Shown in pieces: positions 38,942 to 56,421 of a DNA stretch of 64,000 nucleotides. The notes under the pieces were generated by a model that did no database searches, had not been told where the DNA came from, and worked only from the letters and a program-made list of their open reading frames with translations. Every line of letters begins with the position of its first letter. The stretch's first letter is position 1. The position numbers were made by a program, and so were the translations under genes. Source of the DNA: Bacteroidales bacterium (lineage in GTDB: Bacteria; Bacteroidota; Bacteroidia; Bacteroidales; UBA3824); the NCBI GenBank assembly GCA_017541145.1, contig JAFXZT010000137.1, positions 45,078 to 109,077 of the forward strand, written 5' to 3'.

Positions 38942-39017
38942 TGTAAAACTACACTTTCTAAAATGTAATATTCCACCTTCAAAAATGCATTTTACAATGA
39001 TATAATTCTGACTTTTG
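38942..39017 (+). promoter_or_regulatory. Shared two-site regulatory element and promoter of cysD (element A)
   Basis: Site 1 TGTAAAACTACA (38942-38953), site 2 TGTAATATTCCA (38964-38975), 22 bp apart; then 34 nt to a -7-like box GACTTTTG (39010-39017, one mismatch to TAnnTTTG). Each site fits the dyad TGnAA-nn-YTnCA. The same layout precedes cysH, pstS, pstC and pstA. Confidence 0.75.
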
Positions 39018-39040
39018 CAGCAAGAAAAATTTCATTGAAA

Positions 39041-39931
39041 ATGACACATTTAAACGAATTAGAAGCTGAATCAATTTATATTCTAAGGGAAACCGCAGCA
39101 CAGTTTCAACGTCCGGCAATTTTGTTTTCGGGCGGAAAAGATTCAATTGTGGTTACTCACTTGGCATACAAGGCGTTTTACCCTGCAAAACTGCCTTTCC
39201 CGCTCGTTCATATTGACACGGGACACAATTTTAAGGAAACTATCGAATACCGCGACAACCTCGTTAAAAAACTCGGTGCTGACCTCATCGTCGGCTCGGT
39301 TCAGGAGAGCATCGACAAGGGTCGCGTAAAGGAGGAAACAGGTTACAATGCTTCACGCAACGCATTGCAGACCACCACTTTGCTCGACACCATCGAAAGC
39401 AACAAATTCGACGCTTGCATTGGCGGAGCACGCCGCGACGAGGAAAAAGCGAGAGCGAAAGAACGTATTTTTTCACACCGTGACGAGTTCGGTCAATGGA
39501 ACCCTAAAAACCAACGTCCCGAACTTTGGAACATCTTCAACGGCAAGAAAAATCAGGGCGAACATTTCCGCGTCTTCCCGATTTCAAATTGGACTGAAAT
39601 GGACGTTTGGCAGTACATTTACAAAGAAAAAATCGAACTTCCGAGCCTCTATTACACCCACACCCGCAAATGTTTTTACCGCGACGGTCAGTGGCTCGCA
39701 GCCGAGGACTGCATCAAACGCCGCCCCGAAGAGGAAGTTGTGGAAAAGCAAGTACGCTGCCGCACCATCGGCGACATAACTTGCACAGGCTTAACGCTTT
39801 CCACTGCTCACACCATTGAAGACATCATAGCCGAAACCGCTGCAACACGCGTTACAGAACGTGGCGGACGCGCCGACGACAAACGCAGCGAAACCGCAAT
39901 GGAGGACAGAAAAATTAACGGCTATTTTTAG
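39041..39931 (+). CDS. cysD: Sulfate adenylyltransferase subunit 2
   Basis: 296 residues from ATG 39041 (the upstream TTG is not needed). CysD is the catalytic subunit of ATP sulfurylase; with the GTPase CysN it turns sulfate and ATP into APS. PP-loop FSGGKDSIVV near residues 29-38, then LVHIDTGHNFKE, the GGARRDEEKARAKER block, and RPELWNIFNG and FPISNWTEMDVWQYI. Followed by cysN after a gap filled with palindromes. Confidence 0.96.
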   Translation: MTHLNELEAESIYILRETAAQFQRPAILFSGGKDSIVVTHLAYKAFYPAKLPFPLVHIDTGHNFKETIEYRDNLVKKLGADLIVGSVQESIDKGRVKEETGYNASRNALQTTTLLDTIESNKFDACIGGARRDEEKARAKERIFSHRDEFGQWNPKNQRPELWNIFNGKKNQGEHFRVFPISNWTEMDVWQYIYKEKIELPSLYYTHTRKCFYRDGQWLAAEDCIKRRPEEEVVEKQVRCRTIGDITCTGLTLSTAHTIEDIIAETAATRVTERGGRADDKRSETAMEDRKINGYF

Positions 39932-39947
39932 TCGCTCGCCGCGTGGC

Positions 39948-40072
39948 GTTCTTTTTTGGAAAAAAGAACCAAAAAACTTTTATACTCGCACTTCGTGCGG
40001 ATTATCACTTAAACCGGCGAGCATAGCGAGCCGAATATAAAAATTTTCCGGTTCCCTTTTTTAAAAGGGAAC
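39948..40072. repeat. Array of palindromes between cysD and cysN
   Basis: In 125 bases: GTTCTTTTTT-GG-AAAAAAGAAC (39948-39969), CGCAC-TTC-GTGCG (39987-39999), an imperfect CGGC...GCCG palindrome near 40014-40033, and GTTCCCTTTT-TT-AAAAGGGAAC (40051-40072). The outer two share the GTTC.../...GAAC ends. The layout resembles the mobile or REP-like intergenic palindromic units of Bacteroidota; it lies inside the cysDN operon and could affect mRNA processing or partial termination. Confidence 0.6.
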
Positions 40073-40086
40073 AAAAAGACAAAAAT

Positions 40087-41349
40087 ATGGCAAACGGATA
40101 TTTAGATATGCAACTCCTGCGCTTTACGACGGCGGGGAGCGTTGACGACGGAAAATCGACTCTTATCGGACGACTTTTGTACGATTCAAAATCGATTTTC
40201 GAAGATCAGTTGGAGGCAGTGGAACAGGCTTCTAAAAGTCGTGGAAATGAGGATGTAAACCTCGCACTGTTGACCGACGGACTTAAAGCCGAACGTGAAC
40301 AGGGAATCACTATCGACGTGGCTTACAGATATTTTGCCACGCCCAAGCGCAAATTCATCATTGCCGACACTCCCGGGCACATTCAGTACACACGAAATAT
40401 GGTGACGGGTGCTTCAACGGCAGATTTGGCGATAATTTTGATTGACGCAAGACACGGCGTTATGGAACAGACTATCCGACATTCGTACATTGCAACGTTA
40501 CTCGGAATTTCGCGTATCGTGGTGTGTGTCAACAAGATGGACTTGGTTGATTTTTCAAAGGACGTTTTCGACAAAATCATTGTCGACTACAAAGAAATGT
40601 CAAAACACCTTGACATTCCCGACACGGATTTTATTCCAATAAGTGCAAAAAACGGCGATAATGTTGTCAACAAATCCGACAACACAGCTTGGTACACCGG
40701 CAAACCGCTTTTGGAATATTTGGAAACCGTGGAAATCAAAAAGTCTGAAAATCAGGAATTTCGTATGGCGGTTCAATATGTTGTCCGTCCGATTTCCGAC
40801 AAGTTTGCAGATTTCAGGGGTTATGCCGGACGAATTGCGCAGGGCGTCCTCCACATAGGCGACAAAATCAAGGTTTTGCCTTCGGGAACGGTGTCAACGG
40901 TGAAAGGAATTTACAACGGTACGCAGGAATTGAACGAGGCTCAGGAAGGCGAATCGGTAAACATCACCCTCAACGACGACATCGACATTTCGCGCGGGGA
41001 TTATCTCGTTGCCGACGATGGCAATTTGCCGAAGGTTGACAATCTGTTCGTTCTCAACATCTGTTGGTTCAACACTACGCCGATGCAACTCCGCAAAAAA
41101 TACATCGTCCGCCACGCCACGCAAGAGGTTCAGGGACTTTTTACGGCGATTGATTTCAAAACCGACATCTCCACGCAGGAGAAAATTCACGAGGTCAACG
41201 AACTGCAACTCAACGACATCGCACAGGTTCAACTCAAAACCGCCAATCCTTTGGTTTTTGAAAGTTACAAACAAAACAAAGTTTTGGGTTCGCTGATTTT
41301 CGTTGATCCGTTCAGTTTTGAAACCGTCGGAGCAGGAATGATCATTTAA
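40087..41349 (+). CDS. cysN: Sulfate adenylyltransferase subunit 1 (GTPase)
   Basis: 420 residues, an EF-Tu-like GTPase. G1 GSVDDGKST at 17-25 or so, the EREQGITIDVAYRYF switch, G3 DTPGHIQYTRNM, G4 NKMD. CysN regulates CysD by GTP hydrolysis. The length is that of CysN alone; there is no C-terminal APS kinase (CysC) domain. The last 44 bases occur again at 47633-47676. Nuclease copy 2 begins about 78 bases after the stop. Confidence 0.96.
   Translation: MANGYLDMQLLRFTTAGSVDDGKSTLIGRLLYDSKSIFEDQLEAVEQASKSRGNEDVNLALLTDGLKAEREQGITIDVAYRYFATPKRKFIIADTPGHIQYTRNMVTGASTADLAIILIDARHGVMEQTIRHSYIATLLGISRIVVCVNKMDLVDFSKDVFDKIIVDYKEMSKHLDIPDTDFIPISAKNGDNVVNKSDNTAWYTGKPLLEYLETVEIKKSENQEFRMAVQYVVRPISDKFADFRGYAGRIAQGVLHIGDKIKVLPSGTVSTVKGIYNGTQELNEAQEGESVNITLNDDIDISRGDYLVADDGNLPKVDNLFVLNICWFNTTPMQLRKKYIVRHATQEVQGLFTAIDFKTDISTQEKIHEVNELQLNDIAQVQLKTANPLVFESYKQNKVLGSLIFVDPFSFETVGAGMII
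41306..41349 (+). repeat. 44-bp direct repeat, first copy (cysN 3' end)
   Basis: The last 44 bases of cysN including the stop codon; 43 of 44 bases are identical to 47633-47676 (C41343 against T47670). The copies are 6327 bases apart and enclose nuclease copy 2, the DUF262 pair and a broken gene. Confidence 0.85.
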
Positions 41350-41390
41350 GAAAATTGGGCAAACTTTTGTCCCGTTTCGTAAAAAAAATG

Positions 41391-41425
41391 TATCTTTGCG
41401 GTTGAAGACGAAAAACTTTAACCGC
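41391..41425 (+). promoter_or_regulatory. Promoter box plus start-codon-proximal hairpin, nuclease copy 2
   Basis: TATCTTTG (41391-41398); stem GCGGTTGAAG (41398-41407), an 8-base loop, CTTTAACCGC (41416-41425). At the sixth stem pair this copy has U-A where copy 1 has G-U and copy 3 has A-U. ATG at 41427. Confidence 0.7.
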
Positions 41426-41426
41426 T

Positions 41427-43013
41427 ATGAGAGAGTTACCTATCGGCATACAGACGTTTTCGGAGATTGTCAACCGAAATTGCGTTTATGTGGACAAAAC
41501 CGAGTTGATTTACAAGATGGTTTCGTCCCAAAAATATATTTTTCTTTCCCGTCCGCGTAGATTTGGCAAATCGTTGCTAATTAGCACGTTACAGTCATAC
41601 TTCGAGGGCAGGAAAGATTTGTTCAATGGTTGCAAAATCAACGAACTTGATACCCAATGGATACAATATCCCGTTGTAACATTGAGTTTCGCTTCTTGCA
41701 AATCGGACAAGTTGGATGCGATTGTTAAATTTATTTCAATCACCTTGTCGGAACAAGAATTTAAATTCGGGCTTGTTGACCAAGTGGAATCATCAAAAGA
41801 CGATAAGGCTATTGATATTAATTTCAATGTTCGTCTTAGCAACATCGTCGATGCCGCCTATCAAAAAAACGGCAAACAAGTTGCCATCCTTATTGACGAG
41901 TACGATGCGCTGATGTTCAACACAATAACAGATTTGAAAACACAGGATGCGGTGCGTGTTCACTTGAACAATCTTTTTTCGCCGATTAAGGATTTGGACC
42001 CGAAACTCAAATTTGTGTTCATAACGGGAATCACAAAACTGAGCCAAATGTCGATTTTCTCAACGCTCAACAATCTGACTGACATAAGTTTGGATTCGCG
42101 TTACTGTACTCTTTGCGGCTTTACAGAAAACGAAGTCCGCACCGAACTCAAACCATACGTGGAGGATTTCGCCAACAAATTCAAATGCAATTTCGACGAT
42201 GCCATCGCAAGGCTCAAACAGCGTTACGATGGCTATAAATTCTCTGACGAGGACGAAGGCGTTTTTAATCCGTATAGTCTTTTAAGGGCTTTGGATTCAA
42301 AGGTTTTCAAAAATTATTGGGTTGAAACCGCCACACCTTCCTCTTTGTTGGCTTTGCTGCGCGAAAACGAAAACTTACAAATAGGTGATTTGGAAAGCGT
42401 TATGCTTAGTAGCGACTTTTTTGATACGCCGGTTGAGCGTGTTACCGACATTATTCCGTTGCTTTACCAAAGCGGTTACCTTTCGATAAAGAATTATGAT
42501 GCAGATTTTGATCAATATGAGATAGGTTTTCCAAATTCGGAAGTCAAGTTTGGATTCTTAAACACTTTGATGAAAAAATACGCCGTTGTTGACAATGGCA
42601 AGGAAAATTCGCTTTTCCGCCGCTCGGTGGTAACGTCCGTCAAGGAAGACAATCCCGAAATCCTATTGAAACAGTTGCAGGATTTTATGCGCAAAATTCC
42701 GTACCCCAACACCGCCGACACACCCGAATGGTACTATCAAAACCTTCTCTATGCCATTCTTGCCACCTGCGGCCTCAACGTCCAAACCGAAATCCGCACA
42801 TCCGACGGACGCATCGATTTTGTGTTGTTTTCGCCGAAATCAATTTTTATTTTCGAGTTTAAACTCAACAAATCCGCCGAAGAAGCATTATCGCAAATCG
42901 ATGAAAAACAATACGCAAATAAATACTCGTTTGACGACAGAAAAATTTGGAAAATCGGCGTAAACTTTTCAAGCGAAGAAAGGACTGTGGATGAGTGGAA
43001 GGTGGGGAAATAA
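41427..43013 (+). CDS. AAA-ATPase-like / PD-(D/E)XK nuclease-like protein, copy 2
   Basis: 528 residues, start MRELPIGIQTF. Walker A SRPRRFGKSLL, Walker B VAILIDEYDAL, nuclease core GRIDFVLFSP...FIFEFKLNK. It is the most divergent of the trio, but its 220-310 stretch (SRYCTLCGFTE, VRTELKPYV, KQRYDGYKFSDEDEGVFNP) is near identical to copy 1 and unlike copy 3. It lies just after the cysN 3' end and before the DUF262 pair. Confidence 0.9.
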   Translation: MRELPIGIQTFSEIVNRNCVYVDKTELIYKMVSSQKYIFLSRPRRFGKSLLISTLQSYFEGRKDLFNGCKINELDTQWIQYPVVTLSFASCKSDKLDAIVKFISITLSEQEFKFGLVDQVESSKDDKAIDINFNVRLSNIVDAAYQKNGKQVAILIDEYDALMFNTITDLKTQDAVRVHLNNLFSPIKDLDPKLKFVFITGITKLSQMSIFSTLNNLTDISLDSRYCTLCGFTENEVRTELKPYVEDFANKFKCNFDDAIARLKQRYDGYKFSDEDEGVFNPYSLLRALDSKVFKNYWVETATPSSLLALLRENENLQIGDLESVMLSSDFFDTPVERVTDIIPLLYQSGYLSIKNYDADFDQYEIGFPNSEVKFGFLNTLMKKYAVVDNGKENSLFRRSVVTSVKEDNPEILLKQLQDFMRKIPYPNTADTPEWYYQNLLYAILATCGLNVQTEIRTSDGRIDFVLFSPKSIFIFEFKLNKSAEEALSQIDEKQYANKYSFDDRKIWKIGVNFSSEERTVDEWKVGK

Positions 43014-43054
43014 TTATTATTCGGACACTTAACAAATATTAAAACAGCATAAAA

Positions 43055-44785
43055 ATGTCGAACACAAAACTCGAAACAAAATTAGTAGGCAACATCAGCG
43101 GCGACTTCTTTATTGCCGATTACCAACGAGGTTATCGGTGGAAAGAAGAAGTTGAAATGTTGCTCAACGATATATCAGAGATAGAAGAAGGCAAAAATTA
43201 TTGTCTCCAACCTATTGTGGTGAAGAATGTTGACGGTAAATATGAATTGATAGACGGTCAACAACGTCTTACCACATTGTATTTGATTCAAAAATTCACA
43301 AAGATATATCGACCAAAGATCCAAATTAAATACACTATTTCGTATGAAACGAGGGAGGACAGCAAAAACTTTCTTGAAAATTTAAATTTTGAATGCATTA
43401 ACGACAACCCACACAACATTGATGAATATTTTATCAATGAAGCCGCAACAATAATCAAAAATTGGTTTGAGAAATTCAACAATGAAAACCAACCAAAATA
43501 TACCGACGATGACGATGCCGCCAATGACATTCAAACAAAACTTAATAACAAAGTTCACGTAATTTGGTATGAAGTTGATGCCGAAGAAAATTCGACAAAA
43601 TTATTCACACGCTTGAATATCGGAAAAATACCGCTGACAAATGCAGAACTTGTAAAAGCCTTGTTTTTAAGTAGAAACAATGGGATTGACGACCAAAAAC
43701 AATTGGAAATTGCAACTCAGTGGGATATCATAGAAAAAGAACTCAGAAACGACAATTTGTGGTGTTTCATCACAAACGAAGACGTTGAAAACTATGCCAC
43801 AAGGATAGAATTGATTTTCAATCTGATGGCAAACAAAAAAAGTTCGGACAAAGAGCAATTTAGAACATTTTTCTATTTCAACGACAAGATTAAAGGCGAG
43901 AAAAACAAAGCGGACGTTTGGGAGGAGATAATGCGCTATTATCAAAAAATAAAAGAATGGCACGAAAATTTCGAAGTGTATCATAAAGTTGGATATCTCA
44001 TTGCAACAGAATCAATTACACTACAACAACTTCTTAACGAGTCCGTTGATAAAACAAAATCTGATTTCCAAATATCGTTAAACGAAAAAATCGCACAAAG
44101 CATAAACTTTAACAAAGCATACGCAGATTTGTCTTATGATAATGATAAAGCACAAATTGCTAAAATGCTACTTTTGTTCAATGTTGAAACCATCAGGCAA
44201 AAGAAGGATGATTTTATGCGGTTCCCATTTGAGAGGCACAAAAAAGAGTGTTGGAGTTTGGAACATATTCACGCGCAACATTCCGAAGGTTTGAACAAAG
44301 ATGAAGCAAGAAAAGAATGGCTTCTCAATCATAAACAATCTTTAATATCCCTTAAAGATGAGAAACTTAGCGACATTATTAGACGTTGCGACGAGTTGAT
44401 TTCAAAGATTGAGAATCCCAACGACAAATCGAATGTCGGCGACATCTTCGACCCTCTGTTTACAGATGTTGTAAAATGCCTTTCAGAAAACGGCGAAACC
44501 GAAGAAATTGATACTTTGGATAATATGGCGTTGCTGTCGACAAAAGACAACTCCACCCTAAATAATTCTACCTTTGACGTTAAGCGTAATAGAATTATTG
44601 CAATGGATCAAACAATTAACTATATTCCTGTTTGCACAAAAAGGGTATTCCTCAAATATTACACACAGTCCGCCGACAACCAACTCCATTTTTGGGGCAA
44701 AGCGGACAGAAAGGCATACATTCAAAATATGAATGACGTGCTAAAACCATATTTTGCTATTATCAACAAAACAATTGAATTATGA
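43055..44785 (+). CDS. DUF262 / DUF1524 (GmrSD-like) protein with HNH domain
   Basis: 576 residues. The N-terminal DUF262 domain, a ParB/Srx-like fold found in GmrS, has IADYQRGYRW at 20-29 and DGQQR at 67-71. The C-terminal part is DUF1524-like with a His-Me/HNH core SLEHIHAQHS (E403, H404, H406) and the second family block LDNMALLSTKDNSTLNN. GmrSD is a type IV restriction enzyme that cuts modified phage DNA. Its stop overlaps the start of the next DUF262 gene (ATGA), so the two are produced together. Base composition is AT-richer than the cys genes. Confidence 0.9.
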   Translation: MSNTKLETKLVGNISGDFFIADYQRGYRWKEEVEMLLNDISEIEEGKNYCLQPIVVKNVDGKYELIDGQQRLTTLYLIQKFTKIYRPKIQIKYTISYETREDSKNFLENLNFECINDNPHNIDEYFINEAATIIKNWFEKFNNENQPKYTDDDDAANDIQTKLNNKVHVIWYEVDAEENSTKLFTRLNIGKIPLTNAELVKALFLSRNNGIDDQKQLEIATQWDIIEKELRNDNLWCFITNEDVENYATRIELIFNLMANKKSSDKEQFRTFFYFNDKIKGEKNKADVWEEIMRYYQKIKEWHENFEVYHKVGYLIATESITLQQLLNESVDKTKSDFQISLNEKIAQSINFNKAYADLSYDNDKAQIAKMLLLFNVETIRQKKDDFMRFPFERHKKECWSLEHIHAQHSEGLNKDEARKEWLLNHKQSLISLKDEKLSDIIRRCDELISKIENPNDKSNVGDIFDPLFTDVVKCLSENGETEEIDTLDNMALLSTKDNSTLNNSTFDVKRNRIIAMDQTINYIPVCTKRVFLKYYTQSADNQLHFWGKADRKAYIQNMNDVLKPYFAIINKTIEL

Positions 44786-46992: not shown

Positions 46993-47026
46993 CATTTTTT
47001 TTGGAATTCAATAATCTCAACCTACT

Positions 47027-47580
47027 ATGAATGAAGGGAAACATCCATTTGAATTATTGTCCGAGAATGACAACTTTATTGCCACAAAAATATGGTTTCG
47101 CGGTGGTTTTGGTCCTCGCAGTAGAAAACCTTTATATTATCTATACGATAAAAAGGCAAATTCTATCAAGTGTGCTGAATGTACCGATCCAATACGATAT
47201 GTTCGTATCCCTATTGTATTGAAATTTTTATTCTGGGTCTCTCATATCTTCCGAAAGTTGATAATAGACGACTTCTATTATATCATAAACGAAGATAATT
47301 TATATTCTCATTTTCACTCTGAATTTGCAGATTATCACTTCATTATAAAAAGTAATAAACATTTAAAAGAATATGTTATGATACGATGTTGGATGATGAA
47401 GATGTGAATGGGTGTAAACAAATTCTTAGTAGACCATTAAAAATCATTGTATTAATGTACGACATAATGACAAAATCTGTTCCATATGGTTTTGAAATAG
47501 GTCTTATGAAGACAAGGATATTTTTATGTCACTTTAAATTCATCCGTTCGTTCTTAATTAGCGAAAATAAAATCCCATAA
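47027..47580 (+). pseudogene. Probable frameshifted small gene
   Basis: A frame from ATG 47027 runs 126 residues to a TGA at 47405-47407; a second frame, open from 47359 to 47580, continues in a different phase (CYDTMLDDEDVNGCKQIL...RSFLISENKIP). The overlap zone around 47370-47400 and the similar composition suggest one ~180-residue gene with a frameshift. Not recognised; it starts 35 bases after the DUF262 pair. It could instead be two small genes. Confidence 0.4.
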
Positions 47581-47593
47581 CATCCTAAAAAAC

Positions 47594-47626
47594 TGCAATC
47601 TTCCATTTTTTTGCTGCAATCTTCCA
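47594..47626 (+). promoter_or_regulatory. Orphan copy of the shared two-site regulatory element (element B)
   Basis: Two identical sites TGCAATCTTCCA at 47594-47605 and 47615-47626 (21 bp apart), followed by the conserved CCG. Seven bases later the cysN tail copy begins, so the usual 34-nt spacer and -7 box are missing. It looks like the start of an element-driven operon joined to a cysN 3' end by deletion. Confidence 0.6.
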
Positions 47627-47632
47627 CCGCTA

Positions 47633-47676: not shown

Positions 47677-47719
47677 ATTTGAGATTGGAAGTTTTTTTTG
47701 ATATATAAAAATTAAATGC

Positions 47720-47775
47720 TATATTTGTAATGCGGAAGGAAGTTACTTCAAAGTATGCCTTCCGTACTTTTTTTG
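47720..47775 (+). ncRNA. Candidate short RNA with own promoter and terminator-like hairpin
   Basis: -7 box TATATTTG (47720-47727), then CGGAAGG (47733-47739) that can pair with CCTTCCG (47758-47764). A competing stem AAGTA/TACTT (47751-47755 with 47765-47769) runs straight into seven T. The two stems exclude each other. The segment also contains a 28-codon open frame from ATG 47730, so a leader peptide is an alternative. Confidence 0.35.
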
Positions 47776-47905
47776 CCAAAATTCCATCCACAATAACGCA
47801 GCAATTTTTTTCTTGAATAAGTAAACATTTTTATAAAAATAATTGGGGAATTGAGTCAAGACAAATTAAGAAAAGGACATAACTATTTTAAGCTCCGACA
47901 TCAGT

Positions 47906-47935
47906 TGCAAACCTCCAAATAATCCATTAATTTTG
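47906..47935 (+). promoter_or_regulatory. Promoter of the HAD gene with a single shared-type site
   Basis: TGCAAACCTCCA (47906-47917) fits the TGnAAnnYTnCA dyad of the cys/pst elements, but only one clear site is present and it lies 10 bases, not 34, before the -7 box TAATTTTG (47928-47935). Confidence 0.4.
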
Positions 47936-47956
47936 CGGCGTAAAACGATAGAATTT

Positions 47957-48691
47957 ATGTTAGAAAAAGAAATTGCGGACTATTTAGTCAAAAGTGGTAA
48001 TAAATCATTGAATGTCAAGGCGTTTTTGTTTGATATGGACGGTGTTTTGTTTAATTCGATGCCGTTTCATGCTGTTTCGTGGTGCAGAGCGGCGAAAGAG
48101 TTTGGTCTTGAAATCTCTGAACGTCAGGCTTATATGAACGAAGGACGCACAGGCGCAGGCACTATCAACGAACTCGCCATGCAGCAGTGGGGACGTGAAG
48201 CCACTCAAAAAGAAATAGAGGATATTTACAAGCGCAAGGCTGAAATTTTTGTTTCATGCGGTACGGCAGAGCCGATGAAAGGCGCAGTAAATTTGCTCAA
48301 CTCCATAAAAAAATCAGGTTTAAAAATTGTTCTTGTTACAGGTAGCGGTCAAAAATCGTTATTGGACAAACTCAATCATAGTTTTCCGGGAATTTTCGCC
48401 ACTGAAAATATGGTAACTGCATTTGACGTTAAATATGGAAAACCTAACCCTGAACCTTATCTCATGGGACTGAAAAAAGCCGGTGTTTTACCGACAGAAG
48501 CCGTTGTTGTTGAAAATGCACCTTTGGGCGTTAGAGCGGGTGTTGCCGCAGGAATTTTTACGATTGCCGTTAATACGGGTCCGCTGCCCGATGAATGTCT
48601 GTTAAAAGAAGGCGCGAACGTAATTTTCCCGTCAATGGAATTTTTTGCAGAACATTGGGACGATGTGAGGAATATTATTAAATGCGAATAA
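47957..48691 (+). CDS. HAD-family hydrolase (beta-phosphoglucomutase-like)
   Basis: 244 residues from ATG 47957; the upstream in-frame start at 47933 lies within the -7 box. HAD motif I FLFDMDGVLFNS (nucleophile and acid Asp), cap domain, motif II VLVTGSG, motif III Lys in GKPNPEPY, motif IV VVVENAPLGVRAG. This is the DxDGVLxxS/PGMB subgroup that acts on sugar phosphates or small phosphomonoesters. A single cys-type site in its promoter hints at a link with sulfur metabolism (weak). Confidence 0.85.
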   Translation: MLEKEIADYLVKSGNKSLNVKAFLFDMDGVLFNSMPFHAVSWCRAAKEFGLEISERQAYMNEGRTGAGTINELAMQQWGREATQKEIEDIYKRKAEIFVSCGTAEPMKGAVNLLNSIKKSGLKIVLVTGSGQKSLLDKLNHSFPGIFATENMVTAFDVKYGKPNPEPYLMGLKKAGVLPTEAVVVENAPLGVRAGVAAGIFTIAVNTGPLPDECLLKEGANVIFPSMEFFAEHWDDVRNIIKCE

Positions 48692-49036
48692 CTTTTGAAA
48701 TCCTAAATTCTATAATTAATTTTTGCGGCATAACAAAACGACTGAAATATTATACCAAAATCATAAGCAAATTACCGACAAATTATTGTCTGAACAATTT
48801 GTTTTTTCCACGTCCACAAGGGCAACTTTGCCGGAAGATTGTATCTGAATTGCTTTTGTTGATTTATGTTTTTAACATTTACAACGTCCCAAATCAGAGT
48901 TTTTTGGGAACGGACGAAAGATTTTTATTATTTTTAAAACAGACTTTATTAGATACAATTATATCTGTAAAGCGCATTTTTAACGGTTAAGAGATACAAT
49001 AATATATCTTTGTTATACACATACGAAACAGAAACG
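48692..49036. other. Gap without convincing gene
   Basis: A 102-codon open frame crosses this stretch (48682-48990) but has poor codon quality and no recognisable product. The only signal seen is the -7 box TATCTTTG (49005-49012) ahead of the XRE gene. Confidence 0.4.
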
Positions 49037-49333
49037 GTGGAAGATTTACTAAAAATATTGGCAGACAACCTTCATCGGCGGCGGTTGGAAAAAGGGCTGT
49101 CTCACGAAGCACTTTTTATGATGAGCGGCGTGCCTGCCCCGACAATTGCAAAATTTGAACAAAAACACACAATTTCGCTATCGTCGTTTGTGGCGTTGGC
49201 AAAGGCTTTGGGATATACCGACGACATCAAATCCCTGATTTCCAAACCGTTGTTTACAACGATGGAGTAACTCGAAAACATCAACAAGAATAAAAACCGA
49301 AAACGCGGCAGAAATGAATTCAAAAGTGTTTGA
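49037..49333 (+). pseudogene. XRE-type helix-turn-helix regulator with premature stop
   Basis: From GTG 49037 (no ATG follows the -7 box at 49005-49012 in good position) the frame gives a 77-residue XRE HTH: LADNLHRRRLEKGLSHEAL, then MSGVPAPTIAKFEQKHTISLSS. A TAA at 49268-49270 interrupts it; beyond it the same frame continues LENINKNKNRKRGRNEFKSV to a TGA at 49331-49333, which is the basic tail typical of these HipB-like regulators. The core HTH may still be made. No hipA-like toxin gene follows. Confidence 0.6.
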
Positions 49334-49432
49334 AATGTGAAAAACACAGTGAATGAGGAACTTGGCTTATAAAATTCACGTTCTGAATTATGTTGATGAA
49401 AAATTTCAGTTCTCGAACGTTAACAAAAAAAA

Positions 49433-49508
49433 TGCAATCCTACATCTTTTTTACTGCAACATTCCACCGATATTTTTCCTTTTTGTAATGATAAATATCA
49501 GAATTTTG
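49433..49508 (+). promoter_or_regulatory. Shared two-site regulatory element and promoter of cysH (element C)
   Basis: Sites TGCAATCCTACA (49433-49444) and TGCAACATTCCA (49455-49466), 22 bp apart; 34 nt to the -7-like box GAATTTTG (49501-49508, one mismatch). Confidence 0.75.
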
Positions 49509-49535
49509 CAACGTTGAAAAAAATTAACAATCAAA

Positions 49536-50240
49536 ATGGAAAATTTAATCGAAAATCTGAATAAAAAGTTTGCAGGCGAGAGTGCCGAAACTGTCTTAAA
49601 ATATTTTTTGTCAGAATATAAAGGCGAAATCGGATTGTCATCGTCGCTGAGTTACGAAGACCAAATCTTAACGCATATCATTTGCACAATTGACAAATCG
49701 GCAAAAATTTTCACGCTTGATACGGGAAGATTTTTCCCCGAAACTTATTCTTTGATTGACAATACCAATATGCGTTACGGTATTAAAATTCAGGTTTATT
49801 TCCCTGATTACCAAAAAGTTGAGCAAATGGTAACAGAAAATGGCATCAACCTTTTTTATGAATCGGTTGAAAAACGCCATCTCTGTTGTCAAATCCGCAA
49901 AATTGAACCTTTGAAACGTGCTTTGAAAGGTTTGAAAGTTTGGATAACGGGACTCCGCCGTTCGCAGTCCGTCACCCGCAAAAATATGCAACTCGTGGAA
50001 TACGACAAGGACGATAATATCATCAAACTCAATCCGTTAATAGATTGGAGCGAGGAAGACGTAAAGAATTTTGTCAAAGAAAATCATGTGCCTTACAACA
50101 AACTTCATGACAAGGGTTTTCCGTCAATTGGCTGTCAGCCCTGCACACGTGCCGTTGCCGAGGGTGAAGATATCCGCTCAGGCCGTTGGTGGTGGGAAAA
50201 TCCCGAACACAGGGAGTGCGGATTGCACGTGAGAAGTTAA
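49536..50240 (+). CDS. cysH: Adenylylsulfate (APS) reductase of the CysH family
   Basis: 234 residues. It reduces APS (or PAPS) to sulfite with thioredoxin. Two cysteine pairs, C117-C118 (HLCCQIRK) and C200-C203 (GCQPC), are the ligands of the [4Fe-4S] cluster that marks APS-using enzymes; the catalytic cysteine is C228 in ECGLH near the C-terminus. SSSLSYEDQ and LDTGRFFPET blocks bind the nucleotide. This fits the absence of a CysC kinase domain in CysN. Alone behind the shared element and closed by a terminator. Confidence 0.95.
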   Translation: MENLIENLNKKFAGESAETVLKYFLSEYKGEIGLSSSLSYEDQILTHIICTIDKSAKIFTLDTGRFFPETYSLIDNTNMRYGIKIQVYFPDYQKVEQMVTENGINLFYESVEKRHLCCQIRKIEPLKRALKGLKVWITGLRRSQSVTRKNMQLVEYDKDDNIIKLNPLIDWSEEDVKNFVKENHVPYNKLHDKGFPSIGCQPCTRAVAEGEDIRSGRWWWENPEHRECGLHVRS

Positions 50241-50270
50241 AAGTTTTTTTCGATGGAAATATTATCTATG

Positions 50271-50324
50271 TTCCGGCACGTGAAATATTTGTAAAACTTT
50301 ACAATGAACCCGTGCCGGAATTTT
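50271..50324 (+). terminator. Intrinsic terminator downstream of cysH
   Basis: TTCCGGCACG (50271-50280) pairs perfectly with CGTGCCGGAA (50311-50320) and is followed by TTTT. The remaining gap to 50609 contains only the -7 box listed next. Confidence 0.75.
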
Positions 50325-50562
50325 AATTCTTGTTTTCTTGCGCCAACGGCATTAGCGAATTTACAGTGATTATCAATTTCGATATCAACAAAAGCACAGC
50401 CAAAAAATTTGAAATCAAAATGCAAATCTACATTGTTCATAATACTATCAGATTAAAAATTTACCCCAACTTTCTGAGTTTCCCGTAAAAAAATTATTAA
50501 AGCGAATATATTAACAATTTAAACAATATACAACTTTTTTTTTTGCTTTTTATTTTTTTAGT

Positions 50563-50570
50563 TATATTTG
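50563..50570 (+). promoter_or_regulatory. -7 promoter box (TATATTTG) of the BspA-like gene
   Basis: Full consensus match 39 bases before ATG 50610; it overlaps the longer in-frame start at 50568, which is therefore rejected. Confidence 0.5.
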
Positions 50571-50609
50571 CCTTTGACAACTAATACAAATTCAAAAAAC
50601 CGCAAAATC

Positions 50610-52085
50610 ATGAAAAAAGAAATTAATCTTATAGAAAATCCGAATGCGATAAAAGAATTTATTGACTCAAAAGAAGCAGAAAAAACCTCGCATCTGACAA
50701 TTTCAGGCGAAATCACGGAAGAAGATTATGGGGCATTAATCGACTTCTACAATAATTTCAGATTTATTAAATCTCCTCTCGAATACCTGAATATGAGAGA
50801 TGCTTTTTTCGTGTCAAAAGGTGAAATCAGAAAAGAGACTTTTTCATTGGCGTTTATCCATTCTCTTAACAATCTAAAAGAATTTGTATTCCACAAAAAC
50901 TTGAAGACAATACCGAAAGCAATTTTTCATTTTAGTCATAACCTTTCAAAAATAACGTTGCCCGAAAACCTTGAAAGAATTGAATCATTTGGATTGGAAT
51001 GTCCGAAAGTTACAAAAATAAAACTTCCTGAAACACTAAAAGTAATTGAAGATTCGGCATTTGATTCGATGGGTATAAAAAAAATCTTCATTCCCGACAG
51101 TGTAGAAACAATAATTGGGCAACCGTTTTCTGAATGTAAAAATTTGGAAGAAATTATTGTTTCACCGGAAAACAAACGGTTCTCGGTTATTGACGGTGTT
51201 TTGTTTTCTAAGGATAAGAAAAAACTTCTTGCAGTACCGCCCGCTTTAAAACAGAAAAATTACAAAGTCCCGGTTGGTACAAAAATTATTGCGGAGGGAA
51301 GTTTTTATAGTTTTCTGGGCGAATCAGTTATTTTGCCGGACACTGTTAAAACTATTGAACCGAGAGTTTTTTACTATTGTTATAACCTTGAAAGAATTGA
51401 AATTCCTGACAGTGTGACACATATAGGTGTATTTATGTGCCACATGTGCGGCAAACTCAAATATGTAAGACTTTCTGAAAGTATTACAAAAATAGACGAA
51501 GTATTATTTATAAATTGTACAATGGATACACTAAAACTGCCTGACAATATTAAATATGTCCGTCCAAATAGTTTTTCACACGTAATCGGATTAAAAGAGA
51601 TACAACTAACTGATCAAAATCCTAATTATAAAGTAGTTGACGGTTCTCTATATTCAAAGGACATGAAGAGAATAATATGTGCACCTGATGGCAAAATAAA
51701 CAATCGGTTTCGTATCTGTGAGGGCGTTGAGGTTTTATCCGGCATTTATATGCAAACACATATCACCAAGGCAGTCCTCCCCGACTCTATCAAAAAAATA
51801 GAACGGAATACGTTTTACGGTTGTCGGGATTTGATATCTGTAAGTTTTGGCAAAAACATCGAAACTATTTATTATGACGCATTTATGGACTGTGATAAAT
51901 TGTCGGAATTTAGAATCACCGCGCCTAAACCACCCAAAATAGTTAAAACAAAACGAGGAATTACCGATCAGCCTTTTTGGTGTGATTTGGATTTCAAGAA
52001 ACTCACTGTCTATGTTCCCAAAAGCAGCGTAGAAACCTACAAAAATGCTAAATATTGGAAAGAATCAACAATAAAGGAATTATAA
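50610..52085 (+). CDS. BspA-type leucine-rich repeat (LRR_5) protein
   Basis: 491 residues from ATG 50610. No signal peptide. Many ~23-residue Treponema pallidum/BspA-type repeats, e.g. LEYLNMRD, ITLPENLERIESFGLE, KLPETLKVIEDSAFDSMGIKKIFIPDSVETI, LERIEIPDSVTHIGVFMC. BspA relatives are often cell-surface adhesins, but without a signal peptide this one is probably cytoplasmic. It sits between cysH and pstS without sharing their element. Confidence 0.9.
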   Translation: MKKEINLIENPNAIKEFIDSKEAEKTSHLTISGEITEEDYGALIDFYNNFRFIKSPLEYLNMRDAFFVSKGEIRKETFSLAFIHSLNNLKEFVFHKNLKTIPKAIFHFSHNLSKITLPENLERIESFGLECPKVTKIKLPETLKVIEDSAFDSMGIKKIFIPDSVETIIGQPFSECKNLEEIIVSPENKRFSVIDGVLFSKDKKKLLAVPPALKQKNYKVPVGTKIIAEGSFYSFLGESVILPDTVKTIEPRVFYYCYNLERIEIPDSVTHIGVFMCHMCGKLKYVRLSESITKIDEVLFINCTMDTLKLPDNIKYVRPNSFSHVIGLKEIQLTDQNPNYKVVDGSLYSKDMKRIICAPDGKINNRFRICEGVEVLSGIYMQTHITKAVLPDSIKKIERNTFYGCRDLISVSFGKNIETIYYDAFMDCDKLSEFRITAPKPPKIVKTKRGITDQPFWCDLDFKKLTVYVPKSSVETYKNAKYWKESTIKEL

Positions 52086-52105
52086 CTGTCCCGCACAAAA
52101 AAAAT

Positions 52106-52181
52106 TGCAAAAACACATCTTTTAAATAGTAATATTCCATCATATATTTCTTAACAATATATAAAACTTATAATACCTTTG
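52106..52181 (+). promoter_or_regulatory. Shared two-site regulatory element and promoter of pstS (element D)
   Basis: Sites TGCAAAAACACA (52106-52117) and AGTAATATTCCA (52128-52139), 22 bp apart; 34 nt to the full-consensus -7 box TACCTTTG (52174-52181). Confidence 0.75.
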
Positions 52182-52205
52182 CAACGTAAAAAAATTTAGT
52201 ACAAT

Positions 52206-53168
52206 ATGAAAAAATCATTATTAATTGCCGCATTGTTTTTAACAGCATGCGGCGGAGGAACGGTAAAAAATTACGTTTCCGATGACGGCAAACTACACGG
52301 CGAACTCTCGCTTTCAGGTGCGTTTGCGCTTTATCCGTTGGCAGTGGAATGGGCTGACGAATTTCAGAAAAATAATCCGGACGTTAAGGTTGACGTTTCT
52401 GCCGGTGGCGCAGGTAAAGGTATGACCGACGTTTTGGCAGGTGTTGTGGATTTCGGTATGGTTTCACGCGAAGTTTATCCTCCTGAAGTTGAAAAAGGTG
52501 CAGTTGGATTTCCATCTGCTAAGGATGCCGTTGTGCCTACAATCAACGCTGCAAATCCTGCGCTTCAAGCCATTTTAGCAAAAGGTCTTACCAAAGAAGT
52601 GGCTCGCAAAATTTGGATTGACGGTTCTGTAAAAACTTGGGGTGATGTTCTTGGTACTCAAGACGAAACACCTATTCATATCTACACACGTAGCGACGCT
52701 TGTGGTGCCGCCGAAACATTTGCAAATTGGTTCGGCGCAAAACAAGAGGAACTCACGGGAACGGCTGTTTTTGGCGACCCCGGACTTGCCGCAGCAATTC
52801 AAAAAGACATCTACGGTATCGGTTTTAACAATATTGGATATGCCTACAACAATGACACTCACAAACTTAACGACGGTCTTGAAATTTTCCCCGTTGACGC
52901 TAACGAAGACGGCACAATCAGCGATGACGAAAAATTCTACGACGTTAAAGAGAACATCACAAAAGCGATAGCTGATGGCAAATATCCTTCACCGCCAGCC
53001 CGCGACCTCTATCTCGTTACCAAAGGCGTTCCGACTGACCCTGTTGTAAAGGCGTTTTTGCAGTACGTTCTCACCGACGGTCAGAAGAAAAACGATCCGG
53101 TTGGATACATCCAAATTTCGCAAGACAAACTCGACAAGGCTTTGAAAACATTGTCAGAGGGCAAGTAA
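52206..53168 (+). CDS. pstS: PstS-family oxyanion-binding lipoprotein
   Basis: 320 residues. Lipobox LTAC near 15, then a PBP-like domain: LSGAFALYPLAVEWADEF, SAGGAGKGMTDVLAGVVDFGMVSREV, IYTRSDACGAAETFANWFG. The ligand loop RSDACGAAETF differs from the RxDGSGT form of E. coli PstS, and a helper Asp (E. coli SDAPL) is replaced by SREVYP, as in several PstS-like subgroups. Cognate membrane and ATPase genes lie downstream but scattered. Sharing the cys element suggests a sulfur oxyanion rather than phosphate as ligand (inference). Confidence 0.85.
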   Translation: MKKSLLIAALFLTACGGGTVKNYVSDDGKLHGELSLSGAFALYPLAVEWADEFQKNNPDVKVDVSAGGAGKGMTDVLAGVVDFGMVSREVYPPEVEKGAVGFPSAKDAVVPTINAANPALQAILAKGLTKEVARKIWIDGSVKTWGDVLGTQDETPIHIYTRSDACGAAETFANWFGAKQEELTGTAVFGDPGLAAAIQKDIYGIGFNNIGYAYNNDTHKLNDGLEIFPVDANEDGTISDDEKFYDVKENITKAIADGKYPSPPARDLYLVTKGVPTDPVVKAFLQYVLTDGQKKNDPVGYIQISQDKLDKALKTLSEGK

Positions 53169-53184
53169 ATAAACAAATTAAAAC

Positions 53185-53222
53185 AAACCCGACAACATTT
53201 GATGAATCAAGTTGTCGGGTTT
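53185..53222 (+). terminator. Intrinsic terminator downstream of pstS
   Basis: A perfect 12-bp stem (53185-53196 with 53211-53222) with a 14-base loop, then a T-rich run. It isolates pstS from the rest of the transporter genes. Confidence 0.75.
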
Positions 53223-53255
53223 GGTGTTTTTTGTGGGATAATCAAGGAATTTTAA

Positions 53256-54812
53256 CTATATCACTGCCTCGTAAATCCTCTTGCCGTTATGCTCAATCCA
53301 TTCGGGTTTTTCCTGTACCACTTTTTCCTTTAAGAAAGAGAACGTAACAAGATAACCTTCTTCGAGATTGCGGGTTTCGAGGTATTCTGAAAGTTGGTCA
53401 CGACCCGAAAGTTCGTATTCCGTGCCATGCCAAATTTTCAACTCCACAACGTATTCCTTGTGGTTGTAGGTGATTACCAAGTCCATACGGCTGCCGTCGT
53501 CGTTTTCTGGTTCTGAATAATAAAATCCCGTGCCGTTGATTATCGGCTTCAAAAAACAGATGAACATAAAACGTCCTTCGCGTTCAAGAAACTCGTCTTC
53601 TTTGTCGTGCTTTTTAGATACCAAGTCTTTGAAACGGTTGATAATCAGCGGCATATTCAAGTCGCCTTGCTTGGTTAGGTAAGCCTTTGCCCCAACTTTG
53701 TCGTAAAATGCGTTGAGGGTGTTTTCCGAGATAAAATAGTTGATAAGTATCTGTTGGAAAATCAGATTGTGGATTTCCACTTTGCCGTCTTTGTTGGCTT
53801 TTATGATGGAAAACATATTGGCAAAGTCCATAGTCGGGTTGTTGACATCCATAGAAACCACTAAATTTTCCATCAGCACCGCCCTTATAAAAGCCTTCAA
53901 TTTAGGATAAAGGGCAAGATTGTTGGTCATATTTTCCGACAGATTGGTTTTTTTTGCGATGATGTTTTTAGCCGCTTGAAGAACGCCGTCCTTTGTCCAA
54001 TCTCGGTCTAAATTCTCGTCAATTTCCTTGCAAACACCGCTCACCAAAACGGGGTAGCCCGAAGTGTATTTGAAAATTTCCTCAGAAATCTCCTTGATGT
54101 CGAATCCGATATGGTTTTCGTTCTCGTAATCAACAAGCATTGTACTGATTTCCTGCGGATTAAAAGCCATATCGAGTTTGTAGTCGGCGGCAACGTTCCA
54201 CGGCGAATTGTATTTGTGATCTTCCTCGGGACGGGTTTTTATTTTCATACTTTTGATGTCGTAAACACCAGCAAGAATCACCGACCAAAAGGTGGAGTTG
54301 TATTTTTTGGTTCTTTCGCGTTCCAAATAAAGATTTCTGAGCATCGACAAGAAGTTGAGAAACAACTCATTATCAAGGCTTTTATCCACTTCGTCGATTG
54401 TAAGTACGACATTTTTGCCTATTGACTCGCAAAATTCAACAATTTTCAGCGAAAAACATTTGAAATCAATGACTTCAAACGATTTAGCCTTTGCCCAATA
54501 ATTATTCACGGCTTGACAACCACATTCAGTCGTCGCCAAATTTTCGCAAAAATAGTCATAAAACGTTTTGGTACTCAACCAATTGGCTTTGTCCGTAGTC
54601 TCAAAACTAATAGGAATCACCAAATATCTGTCGCTCAAATTGTTGTAAATCCAATTGAGCGAAGTGCTTTTCCCGAACTGACGCGCACGGTTGATGGTGA
54701 AATAGTTTCCGATGTCTATGAGACGTTCAAAAACCTTCATCTTATTGGTGGTGTCCACCATATAATGCTTCTCAGGGTCGCAAGTTACCGATGTATTGAA
54801 GTATTTTGCCAT
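53256..54812 (-). CDS. AAA-ATPase-like / PD-(D/E)XK nuclease-like protein, reverse-strand member
   Basis: 518 residues from the ATG at 54812 (start MAKYFNTS; the longer frame would cross its own promoter). Walker A NRARQFGKSTS near 42-52, Walker B NVVLTIDEVDKSL near 136, and a nuclease core SRMDLVITYNHKEYVVELKIW near 448-468. It is a separate branch of the family with the RxFGKS Walker A. It lies between pstS and pstC, in the opposite direction, and splits the transporter operon. Confidence 0.85.
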   Translation of the reverse strand: MAKYFNTSVTCDPEKHYMVDTTNKMKVFERLIDIGNYFTINRARQFGKSTSLNWIYNNLSDRYLVIPISFETTDKANWLSTKTFYDYFCENLATTECGCQAVNNYWAKAKSFEVIDFKCFSLKIVEFCESIGKNVVLTIDEVDKSLDNELFLNFLSMLRNLYLERERTKKYNSTFWSVILAGVYDIKSMKIKTRPEEDHKYNSPWNVAADYKLDMAFNPQEISTMLVDYENENHIGFDIKEISEEIFKYTSGYPVLVSGVCKEIDENLDRDWTKDGVLQAAKNIIAKKTNLSENMTNNLALYPKLKAFIRAVLMENLVVSMDVNNPTMDFANMFSIIKANKDGKVEIHNLIFQQILINYFISENTLNAFYDKVGAKAYLTKQGDLNMPLIINRFKDLVSKKHDKEDEFLEREGRFMFICFLKPIINGTGFYYSEPENDDGSRMDLVITYNHKEYVVELKIWHGTEYELSGRDQLSEYLETRNLEEGYLVTFSFLKEKVVQEKPEWIEHNGKRIYEAVI

Positions 54813-54838
54813 AATTCTTTCTCCAAAAATTGTAACTG

Positions 54839-54846
54839 CAAAGTTA
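54839..54846 (-). promoter_or_regulatory. -7 promoter box (TAACTTTG, minus strand) of the 53256-54812 gene
   Basis: CAAAGTTA on the plus strand, 27 bases upstream of the ATG at 54812 and only 26 bases from the first site of the divergent pstC element. Confidence 0.55.
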
Positions 54847-54871
54847 GCAAAAATTTCCGATAGCAAAAAAA

Positions 54872-54947
54872 TGCAAAACTCCATTTATTGAATTGCAATA
54901 CTCCACCGATTTTTTCTCGCCTCGTAACAACCACTGTTGTAATTTTG
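54872..54947 (+). promoter_or_regulatory. Shared two-site regulatory element and promoter of pstC (element E)
   Basis: Sites TGCAAAACTCCA (54872-54883) and TGCAATACTCCA (54894-54905), 22 bp apart, then CCGA; 34 nt to the full-consensus -7 box TAATTTTG (54940-54947). Confidence 0.8.
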
Positions 54948-54966
54948 CAACACATAAAAATTGAAA

Positions 54967-55857
54967 ATGACCAACAAATTTAGAATTATAAAAGACAAAA
55001 CAGCAAATGGAGTTATGATGGCAATCACCATAATCTCTATTATCTTTGTATTTGTAATGGGTATCGGATTGTATATCAAATCACAACCAATATTGGAAGA
55101 ACATTCTTTATGGGACCTTGTCAGCGCATCGTCATGGCAACCATTCAAAAATAATTTCGGCTTTTTGCCTTTTGTTATGGGAACAATTTGGGTAACCCTT
55201 ATTGCAATTATAATAGCCTTGCCATTGTCGCTTATGACCGCGGTATACTTGACTGAGTACGCCAAAAAACGTATTAAAAAGTTTGTTTTTCCGACACTTG
55301 ATATTTTAGCATCACTACCGAGCGTTATTTTCGGCGTTTGGGGTACAATTGTTATTGTACCGATAATTTCCGACCATATCGCACCAATTTTTTCCAATGA
55401 ATATTCTACGGGATACACAGTTTTGGCGGCGGGTATTGTACTGAGCCTTATGCTTGTACCGATTTTAGTAAGTTTGTTTGTGGAATTGTTTTCGTGTGTG
55501 CCCGATGACCTGAGAGCAGCGGCTTATTCTTTGGGCGCAACACGTTGGCAAACTGCAAAAAATGTCATCATAAAAAAATCAATTCCCGGTATTTTTGCGT
55601 CAGTAGTTCTTGCGGTTTCAAAAGCTTTAGGCGAAACAATCGCAGTATTAATGGTTTGCGGTTGTCTTCCTGAAGTTCCTCAAAAACTTTTCGATGCTTG
55701 TTATCCTTTACCGGCATTAATCGCAAATAATTACGGCGAAATGCTTTCATTGCCACTTTATGAATCAGCATTGATGTTTGCTGCATTGTTACTTTTTGTG
55801 GTAGTGATAATCTTTAACTTAGTTTCAAGACTGATTTTAAGGAAGATAGGTGAATAA
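54967..55857 (+). CDS. pstC: PstC-type ABC transporter permease
   Basis: 296 residues from ATG 54967. Six TM segments of the phosphate-type MetI-like permease: IISIIFVFVMGIGLYI, FVMGTIWVTLIAIIIALPLSL, and the EAA loop region DDLRAAAYSLGATRWQTAKNVI followed by SKALGETIAVLMVCG, which is the PstC signature (GETMAVLMVAG in E. coli). It has its own element-driven promoter and is separated from pstA by a minus-strand lipoprotein gene. Confidence 0.9.
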   Translation: MTNKFRIIKDKTANGVMMAITIISIIFVFVMGIGLYIKSQPILEEHSLWDLVSASSWQPFKNNFGFLPFVMGTIWVTLIAIIIALPLSLMTAVYLTEYAKKRIKKFVFPTLDILASLPSVIFGVWGTIVIVPIISDHIAPIFSNEYSTGYTVLAAGIVLSLMLVPILVSLFVELFSCVPDDLRAAAYSLGATRWQTAKNVIIKKSIPGIFASVVLAVSKALGETIAVLMVCGCLPEVPQKLFDACYPLPALIANNYGEMLSLPLYESALMFAALLLFVVVIIFNLVSRLILRKIGE

Positions 55858-55868
55858 ATTTCCACCTA

Positions 55869-56165
55869 TCATTTTTTTATACCGATTAATTTTACTACCG
55901 TATTTTTGATATTAGCAACAAGCGGTATTTTTTTAATATCATCCAAAATCGAATTATTAAACTTTCTGTCTGGTTCTATATTGTTAAAACAAATTCTGTT
56001 AGCATCCAAAGTCTTTATTAACAAACACTTATCATCAGTAATAATTAGAAGATGATCACCATCTAACAGTTCAGTTTGGTAATAAGAAGTCAAAACCTTG
56101 CGCGACATATCGCAACAAGATATCGAAATCAATACAACAATCAATATCAAAATTCTAAATATCAT
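55869..56165 (-). CDS. Small lipoprotein, function unknown
   Basis: 98 residues. The signal peptide ends in ISISCC (lipobox-like, Cys17 or Cys18). The mature part is a short beta-rich domain (TSYYQTELLDGDHLLIITDDKCLLIKTL). It lies between pstC and pstA in the opposite direction. Not recognised. Confidence 0.5.
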   Translation of the reverse strand: MIFRILILIVVLISISCCDMSRKVLTSYYQTELLDGDHLLIITDDKCLLIKTLDANRICFNNIEPDRKFNNSILDDIKKIPLVANIKNTVVKLIGIKK

Positions 56166-56345
56166 AACCGCAAAAATATAACATCATTAAAGACAAAAAA
56201 ACAATTAAATATTAAAATTCAATAACAAAATCTAAGCATTACTTTTTTTTTGACATCAAAATATCTTAGCCGCGAAACCTACTACGGAGAATCAATTTTT
56301 TTCAACAATAACGACTTAATCTTGTAAGAAAATTAAGCAAAAACT

Positions 56346-56421
56346 GCAAAACTCCATTTTTGAAAATGTAATATTCCACCGACTAACTTCGGGTGCGGAA
56401 AGTATTGTGTCGTAATTTTGC
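56346..56421 (+). promoter_or_regulatory. Shared two-site regulatory element and promoter of pstA (element F)
   Basis: Sites TGCAAAACTCCA (56346-56357) and TGTAATATTCCA (56368-56379), 22 bp apart, then CCGA; 34 nt to the full-consensus -7 box TAATTTTG (56414-56421). Confidence 0.8.

Follow-up and report, generated by a model that had tools for sequence, protein, structure and literature searches.

The window analysed here is a 64,000-nt stretch of the genome of a Bacteroidales bacterium (GCA_017541145.1, contig JAFXZT010000137.1, positions 45,078–109,077). It carries the sulfate assimilation genes cysD, cysN and cysH together with genes for a Pst-type ABC transporter. Five promoters in the window, those of cysD, cysH, pstS, pstC and pstA, display a common element: two 12-bp sites that are 22 bp apart, followed at 34 nt from the second site by an eight-base -7 box. 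This layout was first described in a sequence-only reading of the DNA, and all five copies are present with these distances. The positions given there are exact for cysD, cysH, pstS and pstC, but the pstA sites lie one base to the left of 56346/56368. The elements and the genes behind them are listed in Table 1.

Table 1. Elements and sulfur-related genes in the window. Element scores are from R1, a model built from the five window elements; gene scores are given with the cut-off of the family model.
Feature	Position	Strand	Details
cysD element	38942–39017	+	site 1 38942–38953; site 2 38964–38975; -7 box GACTTTTG 39010–39017; 66.4 bits
cysH element	49433–49508	+	site 1 49433–49444; site 2 49455–49466; -7 box GAATTTTG 49501–49508; 73.7 bits
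pstS element	52106–52181	+	site 1 52106–52117; site 2 52128–52139 (AGTAATATTCCA, weakest); -7 box TACCTTTG 52174–52181; 58.5 bits
pstC element	54872–54947	+	site 1 54872–54883; site 2 54894–54905; -7 box TAATTTTG 54940–54947; 74.9 bits
pstA element	56345–56420	+	site 1 56345–56356; site 2 56367–56378; -7 box TAATTTTG 56413–56420; 76.8 bits
Orphan site pair	47594–47626	+	sites at 47594/47615, 21 bp apart; 28.1 bits over model positions 2–63 only
cysD, sulfate adenylyltransferase small subunit	39035–39931	+	TIGR02039, 417.2 bits (cut-off 396.6)
cysN, sulfate adenylyltransferase large subunit	40087–41349	+	TIGR02034, 549 bits (336.1); ~155 nt behind cysD; no element of its own
cysH, adenylylsulfate/3′-phosphoadenylylsulfate (PAPS) reductase	49536–50240	+	TIGR02055, 272.4 bits (235.3)
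PstS-like substrate-binding protein, likely for sulfate (from gene context)	52206–53168	+	TIGR02136, 126.1 bits (under cut-off 206.6); PF12849
PstC-like permease	54961–55857	+	TIGR02138, 263.7 bits (196.45)
PstA-like permease	56440–57288	+	TIGR00974, 194.8 bits (193.45)
PstB-like ATPase	57299–58147	+	TIGR00972, 320.9 bits (under cut-off 343.2); ~10 nt behind pstA; no element of its own

The strict form of the layout is TGnAA-nn-YTnCA, n10, TGnAA-nn-YTnCA, n34 and the -7 box. It matches the window four times on the forward strand (cysD, cysH, pstC and pstA) and not at all on the reverse strand. The pstS pair departs from it by three bases, two in TGCAAAAACACA and one in AGTAATATTCCA; a relaxed layout that admits pstS gives five matches. 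Neither layout occurs in 200 dinucleotide shuffles of the window. Lone sites are frequent by chance, i.e. 22 and 16 on the two strands with 11.85 expected, many being one palindromic place counted twice, and a single site alone carries no meaning. The sequence-only reading also pointed to an orphan pair at 47594 and a single site at 47906. Both are present, but they are not counted as working elements: no -7 box follows the pair at 34 nt, and the site at 47906 has neither a partner nor the spacing to a -7 box. Amid the cys genes is a gene for a HAD-type inorganic diphosphatase (positions 47933–48691, + strand; NF053653, 329.9 bits, cut-off 245). Pyrophosphate removal by this enzyme would pull sulfate activation, and its gene may once have had the degenerate pair at 47594 as its element.

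The genus was sampled with 18 genomes, the window's own (G000) and 17 others, using R1, which holds no sequence from other genomes, and a second model, R2, built from 32 copies. In the 4.63-Mb G000 genome the five window elements score 58–77 bits with R1, the orphan pair 25.9 bits, and the next place 21.7 bits. Thus G000 has no second place of the strength of the window elements. A single-site scan of G000 yields 43 matches, compared with 12 for the reversed pattern; 30 of these were read by eye in their loci and show no site pair with a -7 box outside the window.

Outside G000, R1 gives 24 matches of at least 30 bits, found in 10 of the 17 other genus genomes. All 24 precede cysD, cysN, cysH, pstC, pstA or a TusA-JAB-encapsulin-cysteine desulfurase operon, so every strong copy has sulfur genes behind it. 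The element is genuine: much of the genus has kept it, and it is dedicated to sulfur genes.

Weaker copies extend the list. The next five R1 matches outside G000 (25.5–26.1 bits) precede cysH and pstS in G006, an esterase/ATP-grasp/glutamate-cysteine ligase operon in G001, and Hdr-like operons in G005 and G017, where the match is on the opposite strand of the quasi-palindrome. R2 adds the glutathione operon in G000 (a divergent copy on contig C28, 23.9 bits), G010 and G017, and the glutamate-cysteine ligase gene itself in G016. It also adds a cysK-ThiS-ThiF-DsrE-TusA-JAB operon in G006, G012 and G017, cysK in G011 and an Hdr-like operon in G002; a further copy, before cysD of G006, is weak. 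The cysK operon of G002 continues into encapsulin and desulfurase. Among 20 loci read for weak matches, three matches precede cysK or Hdr genes (cysK in G002 and G004, Hdr in G012), one precedes a SufE gene (G004), and 16 look like chance. The 14 extra glutathione, cysK and Hdr elements were picked by eye among R2 matches of 17–40 bits, by the gene behind them. The G006 cysD copy (29 bits, with a degenerate site 1) was kept in the operon count described below but not among the 46 copies aligned, and a contig-end match (G015:C73, 24 bits) was dropped. Pfam matches back the names TusA, Prok-JAB, SrpI-like encapsulin with a cNMP domain, class-V aminotransferase, glutamate-cysteine ligase, PALP, ThiS, ThiF and DsrE. 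The Hdr-like genes were named from their 4Fe-4S, CCG and FAD domains.

With weaker copies in front of operons of the glutathione, cysteine-synthase/encapsulin/desulfurase and Hdr-like kinds, the regulon extends beyond cys and pst and is one for sulfur in general. The cys/pst regulon as first described stands as a shared, sulfur-linked element, but it was drawn too narrowly. One site or a weak match is also seen before suf-type (Fe-S assembly) genes, at L025:1501–1550 (G000:C85) and L167:4895 (G004), and these loci are possible extra members below threshold.

Neither model finds a convincing element in G008, G009, G013 or G014. Over 393 genomes of the order (with stricter filters above 40 genomes) R1 gives matches in five, four of this genus and G295, whose match (26.4 bits) lies, as judged by eye, before an epimerase-like gene. 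R2 shows nothing above 23.7 bits in 36 non-genus genomes, and in 93 loci its matches above 20 bits are in two genus contigs only. As the scans outside the genus are nearly empty, the element is treated as genus-restricted.

The site-to-site distance is 22 in all 32 aligned copies. Site 2 is 34 nt from the -7 box in 35 of 46 copies, 35 nt in 4, 33 nt in 3, and 17 or 18 nt in four Hdr copies (L147, L150, L152 and L175). This spacing falls into two position classes, with the Hdr copies as the second. The copies share the consensus AAAAAcTGCAAaaCTCCATTTTTTnaATGYAATATTCCACCG, which is followed by a spacer of low conservation and the -7 box; no conserved -33 hexamer is found in the 32 aligned copies. 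Between genes the cores are up to 95% identical and the spacers are near background, e.g. G001 pstA and G010 cysD have 95% identity in the core and 16% in the spacer. Thus it is the position of the spacer that is kept, not its sequence.

Both sites have a symmetry peak at centre 6.5, and A4–T9, G2–C11 and T1–A12 are paired in 91–100% of the 46 copies. For G2–C11 the pairing reaches 100% at site 1 and 91% at site 2 (14 of these 46 elements were chosen by eye from weak matches). Binding sites of Crp and FNR have an even centre, and their conserved G and its partner C are nine positions apart; LysR boxes are of the form T-N11-A with an odd centre. The element displays the Crp/FNR geometry, with an even centre and G and C nine apart. 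Its half-site is TGYAA, not the TGTGA or TTGAT of Crp and FNR sites.

In G010, cysH-pstS-pstC-pstA-pstB is unbroken and has one element, before cysH. In other loci inserts, often AAA-ATPase/PD-(D/E)XK genes, split off pstC, pstA, cysN or pstS. A scripted count over the loci read gives an own element to 29 of 32 separated genes and to 2 of 26 genes attached within an operon; the loci were mostly picked by an R1 match, which favours the first figure, as separated genes without an element may be missed, and affects the second less. The other three separated genes, all without an element, are pstS-like paralogues (58% identity) at a distance from cys genes (G001, G007 and G010). Left out of the count were one contig-end pstA, three pstS fragments whose start is off the contig, and the second fragment of one pstA. 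Sequence-level copying of promoters from one gene to another was considered and set aside: the cores are alike and the spacers are not, and copying with later drift and convergence both fit.

The sulfur genes of the window are bordered or interrupted by AAA-ATPase/PD-(D/E)XK-like genes, at 37128–38885, 41427–43013, 53256–54884 (- strand) and 58144–59817. Relatives have related open reading frames in such places as well, and they look like dispersed repeats.

With respect to the transporter, PstC and PstA are above the cut-offs of the curated Pst models, and PstS and PstB are below. A survey of cysD loci in named genomes (the best 80 of 585 found) shows a pst-like gene on the same strand in 26 of the 80, and no pst-like gene within the stretch read in 54. 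In 21 of the 80 a pst-like gene ends less than 300 nt before cysD, the usual order being pstSCAB-cysDN-cysH. Because pst genes adjoin cysD in these 21 loci, the Pst-type transporter most likely belongs to sulfate uptake rather than to phosphate control. Further along in the window is a complete nifH gene (60841–61689, + strand; TIGR01287, 465.5 bits, cut-off 394.35), followed by a NifX-like gene (61737–62210); a mechanically called open reading frame on the opposite strand (60793–61722) masks nifH. G002 and G001 also have genes similar to nifH and nifX close to their pst genes, and in G002 genes of the NifB-like and NifX-like kinds are upstream of cysD.

A regulator was sought across the genus in three families: HTH_1 (LysR), Rrf2 and HTH_Crp_2. 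One full-length Fnr-like Crp protein is found in 17 of the 18 genomes, and the exception is a genome that is 81% complete. The protein has the cyclic-nucleotide-type N-terminal domain, long dimer helix and C-terminal winged helix-turn-helix of the Crp/FNR superfamily, and its predicted structure matches CrpPg and holo-FNR. Sixteen of the 17 proteins were aligned; C9, C12, C19, C106 and C109 do not vary among them, nor does the core of the recognition helix, E-Q-x-I-H-T-L-R. By eye, the gene follows an open reading frame with a RelA/SpoT-type-looking end in 14 of 17 loci. FNR itself, which controls the switch between aerobic and anaerobic life, has C-x2-C-x5-C and a fourth cysteine as 4Fe-4S ligands; with the Fnr model NF008365 the candidate scores 49.4 bits (cut-off 228). 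The CysR protein of Synechococcus is also of the Crp family.

The tandem element is likely an operator for an activator. A dimeric activator bound twice on one face of the DNA, as first suggested, fits the symmetry and the spacing. Among the candidates tested, a Crp/Fnr-type regulator is the best, with about an even chance of being right. There is a similar, even chance that the element is the operator of a genus-wide sulfur regulon in which each dyad is bound by one dimer of this activator. When sulfur is short, the activator would recruit RNA polymerase from the two dyads, one dimer on each, at their fixed 34 nt before the -7 box. The cysteines of the candidate may hold an Fe-S cluster that reports sulfur status. 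The Pst-type transporter would carry sulfate, and the operator would control together the genes that reduce sulfate, likely take it up, and make cysteine and glutathione.

Several findings weigh against a Crp/Fnr-type protein on this operator. The dyad is partial: positions 5–8 are paired in 30% of the copies at site 1 and in 65% at site 2, and positions 3–10 in 17–22%. Five further HTH_Crp_2 matches exceed the cut-off, all partial and inside longer open reading frames. The cysteine spacing, C9-x2-C12-x6-C19, is not that of FNR. The alignment places isoleucine and histidine at the positions of CRP Gly184 and Arg185 (FNR Ser212 and Arg213); because these DNA-contact residues are changed, the sequence preference of the candidate cannot be read from them. 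No tandem site is present before the candidate gene in 17 loci, and its autoregulation was rejected on this ground. Finally, the protein is also present in G008, G009 and G013, which have no convincing element.

The same regulon may be governed by a regulator of another family (XRE, MarR, GntR, TetR, a response regulator or other), which appears rather doubtful. The genus-wide search covered the three families only, and the window, in which the sequence-only reading saw no obvious regulator gene, does contain an HTH_3 (XRE-like) open reading frame at 49010–49270. This frame was rejected as the regulator, as it has no match in 21 loci of relatives, nine of which have cysH. The even centre and the nine-base G–C distance point to Crp/FNR instead.

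LysR activators of sulfur genes are classical, e.g. CysB and Cbl, which exert positive control over sulfate assimilation in Enterobacteria. A LysR-type activator (CynR/CysB-like), whose tetramer would occupy both sites across their spacing of about two turns, would leave regulon and operator unchanged. HTH_1 matches occur in 15 of the 18 genomes, exactly one of them in G000, and 14 of the 18 share one group; its G000 member scores best with CynR and weakly with CysB models, all below cut-off. Such an activator is unlikely, since G006 (90% complete) has elements before cysN, cysH, pstS, cysD and cysK and no LysR match, and the even-centred dyad differs from the odd-centred T-N11-A box. G005 and G007 also lack a LysR match, but are less complete.

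Rrf2 repressors of the CymR/IscR type control sulfur or Fe-S genes, and CymR-type sulfur regulons act by repression. The two dyads could thus be a repressor operator, bound under sulfur sufficiency to block transcription. Beyond the genus sample, the closest cysD genes are those of three genomes, G406–G408. In these an Rrf2 gene is right behind a PALP (cysK-like) gene, there is no R2 match, and in the two whose cysD upstream region was inspected an AACC-n-GGTT dyad lies close to the -7 box. In the genus, in contrast, no Rrf2 protein is over the cut-off in the 18 genomes (four weak partial matches), and Rrf2 was rejected as the regulator. A repressor operator is quite unlikely, as both sites keep a fixed distance upstream of the -33 region, in which no conserved element is seen, an arrangement that suits activation.

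It is very unlikely that the element is itself non-regulatory, being a promoter copy carried as mobile duplication by the operon-breaking AAA-ATPase/PD-(D/E)XK cassettes. Copies do occur where cassettes or other inserts separate genes, but they are also present before unbroken operons (G010 cysH, L108) and unlinked sulfur operons, the spacers of different genes differ while the cores are common, and the window has matches only at the five promoters and the orphan, its cassette genes having no copy of their own. Most improbable is a Pho-box-like element, with pst importing phosphate and the cys genes secondary: PstSCAB homology and the binding of OmpR/PhoB proteins to direct repeats in 11-bp steps would suit it, but copies precede cysN, cysK, glutathione, Hdr-like and encapsulin operons and are not confined to phosphate genes, PstS and PstB are under their cut-offs, the association of pst-like genes with cysD in the survey is against it, and the element is missing at the three pstS-like paralogues that are not near cys genes.

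Comparison with the genomes that have the nearest cysD suggests a change of regulator. The Crp proteins of G406–G408 are distant (27–31% identity). Rrf2 is not general, being over the cut-off in 8 of 20 named genomes searched. The nearest Crp homologues among the other genomes searched (39–41%; G424, G023 and G037) are each followed directly by an Rrf2 gene. Against such a change, there are three comparison genomes only, and the Crp protein is also found in genus members with no clear element. A tentative proposal, which we regard as possible but less than probable, is that an Fe-S-bearing Crp/Fnr-type protein replaced an Rrf2/CymR-type repressor as the sulfur master switch and senses supply via its own cluster. 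It would bind a hitherto undescribed tandem 22-bp operator, re-created before every gene torn by insertions from a cysH-pstSCAB-cysDN module. Separately, a Crp-family gene followed immediately by an Rrf2 gene is seen at L355, L356 and L357 in three Bacteroidales genomes; the pair is a possible two-regulator sulfur or Fe-S module.

Among the closest known systems is CysR of Synechococcus elongatus PCC 7942, which regulates sulfate transport genes and whose gene is part of a cys operon (PMC12016511). The candidate would likewise regulate sulfate-uptake genes, but in another phylum, and the passages on CysR mention neither an Fe-S cluster nor a tandem layout of 22 bp nor a promoter of the Bacteroidota type. 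Sulfur starvation induces the Synechococcus SrpI encapsulin together with its cysteine desulfurase (PMC8049743), and here the element stands before an operon with an SrpI-like encapsulin and a desulfurase. Bacteroidetes are among the bacteria that have family 2 encapsulins with cysteine desulfurase (PMC8346489). The candidate has 24–25% identity to FNR of Aliivibrio fischeri and differs from it in the cysteine spacing (x6 and not x5) and the DNA-contact residues. It has 25% identity to CrpPg of Porphyromonas gingivalis (PG0396, 2gau); in the portions of the literature consulted, the roles of CrpPg, HcpR and PgRsp are in nitrosative stress, redox and virulence-related genes, not sulfur. CymR/IscR-type Rrf2 repressors likewise control sulfur or Fe-S genes, and the three comparison genomes have an Rrf2 gene behind the PALP gene; the genus differs in having no Rrf2 protein over the cut-off, and the dyad at two of the comparison loci is close to the -7 box. 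The regulon differs from the CysB/Cbl regulons in box geometry and in the lack of a LysR match in G006. In a narrow literature search no described sulfate-assimilation regulator in Bacteroidota was found, in agreement with the earlier statement that none with this site was known.

For one genus there are now a predicted operator of defined layout, a list of the regulon's genes and a candidate for its regulator, and the suggested change of regulator with respect to the nearest-cysD genomes can be tested. A cNMP-domain encapsulin/desulfurase operon is tied to the sulfur response outside cyanobacteria. The grouping of a Pst-type ABC transporter with sulfate assimilation implies that annotated phosphate transporters in such operons likely carry sulfate.

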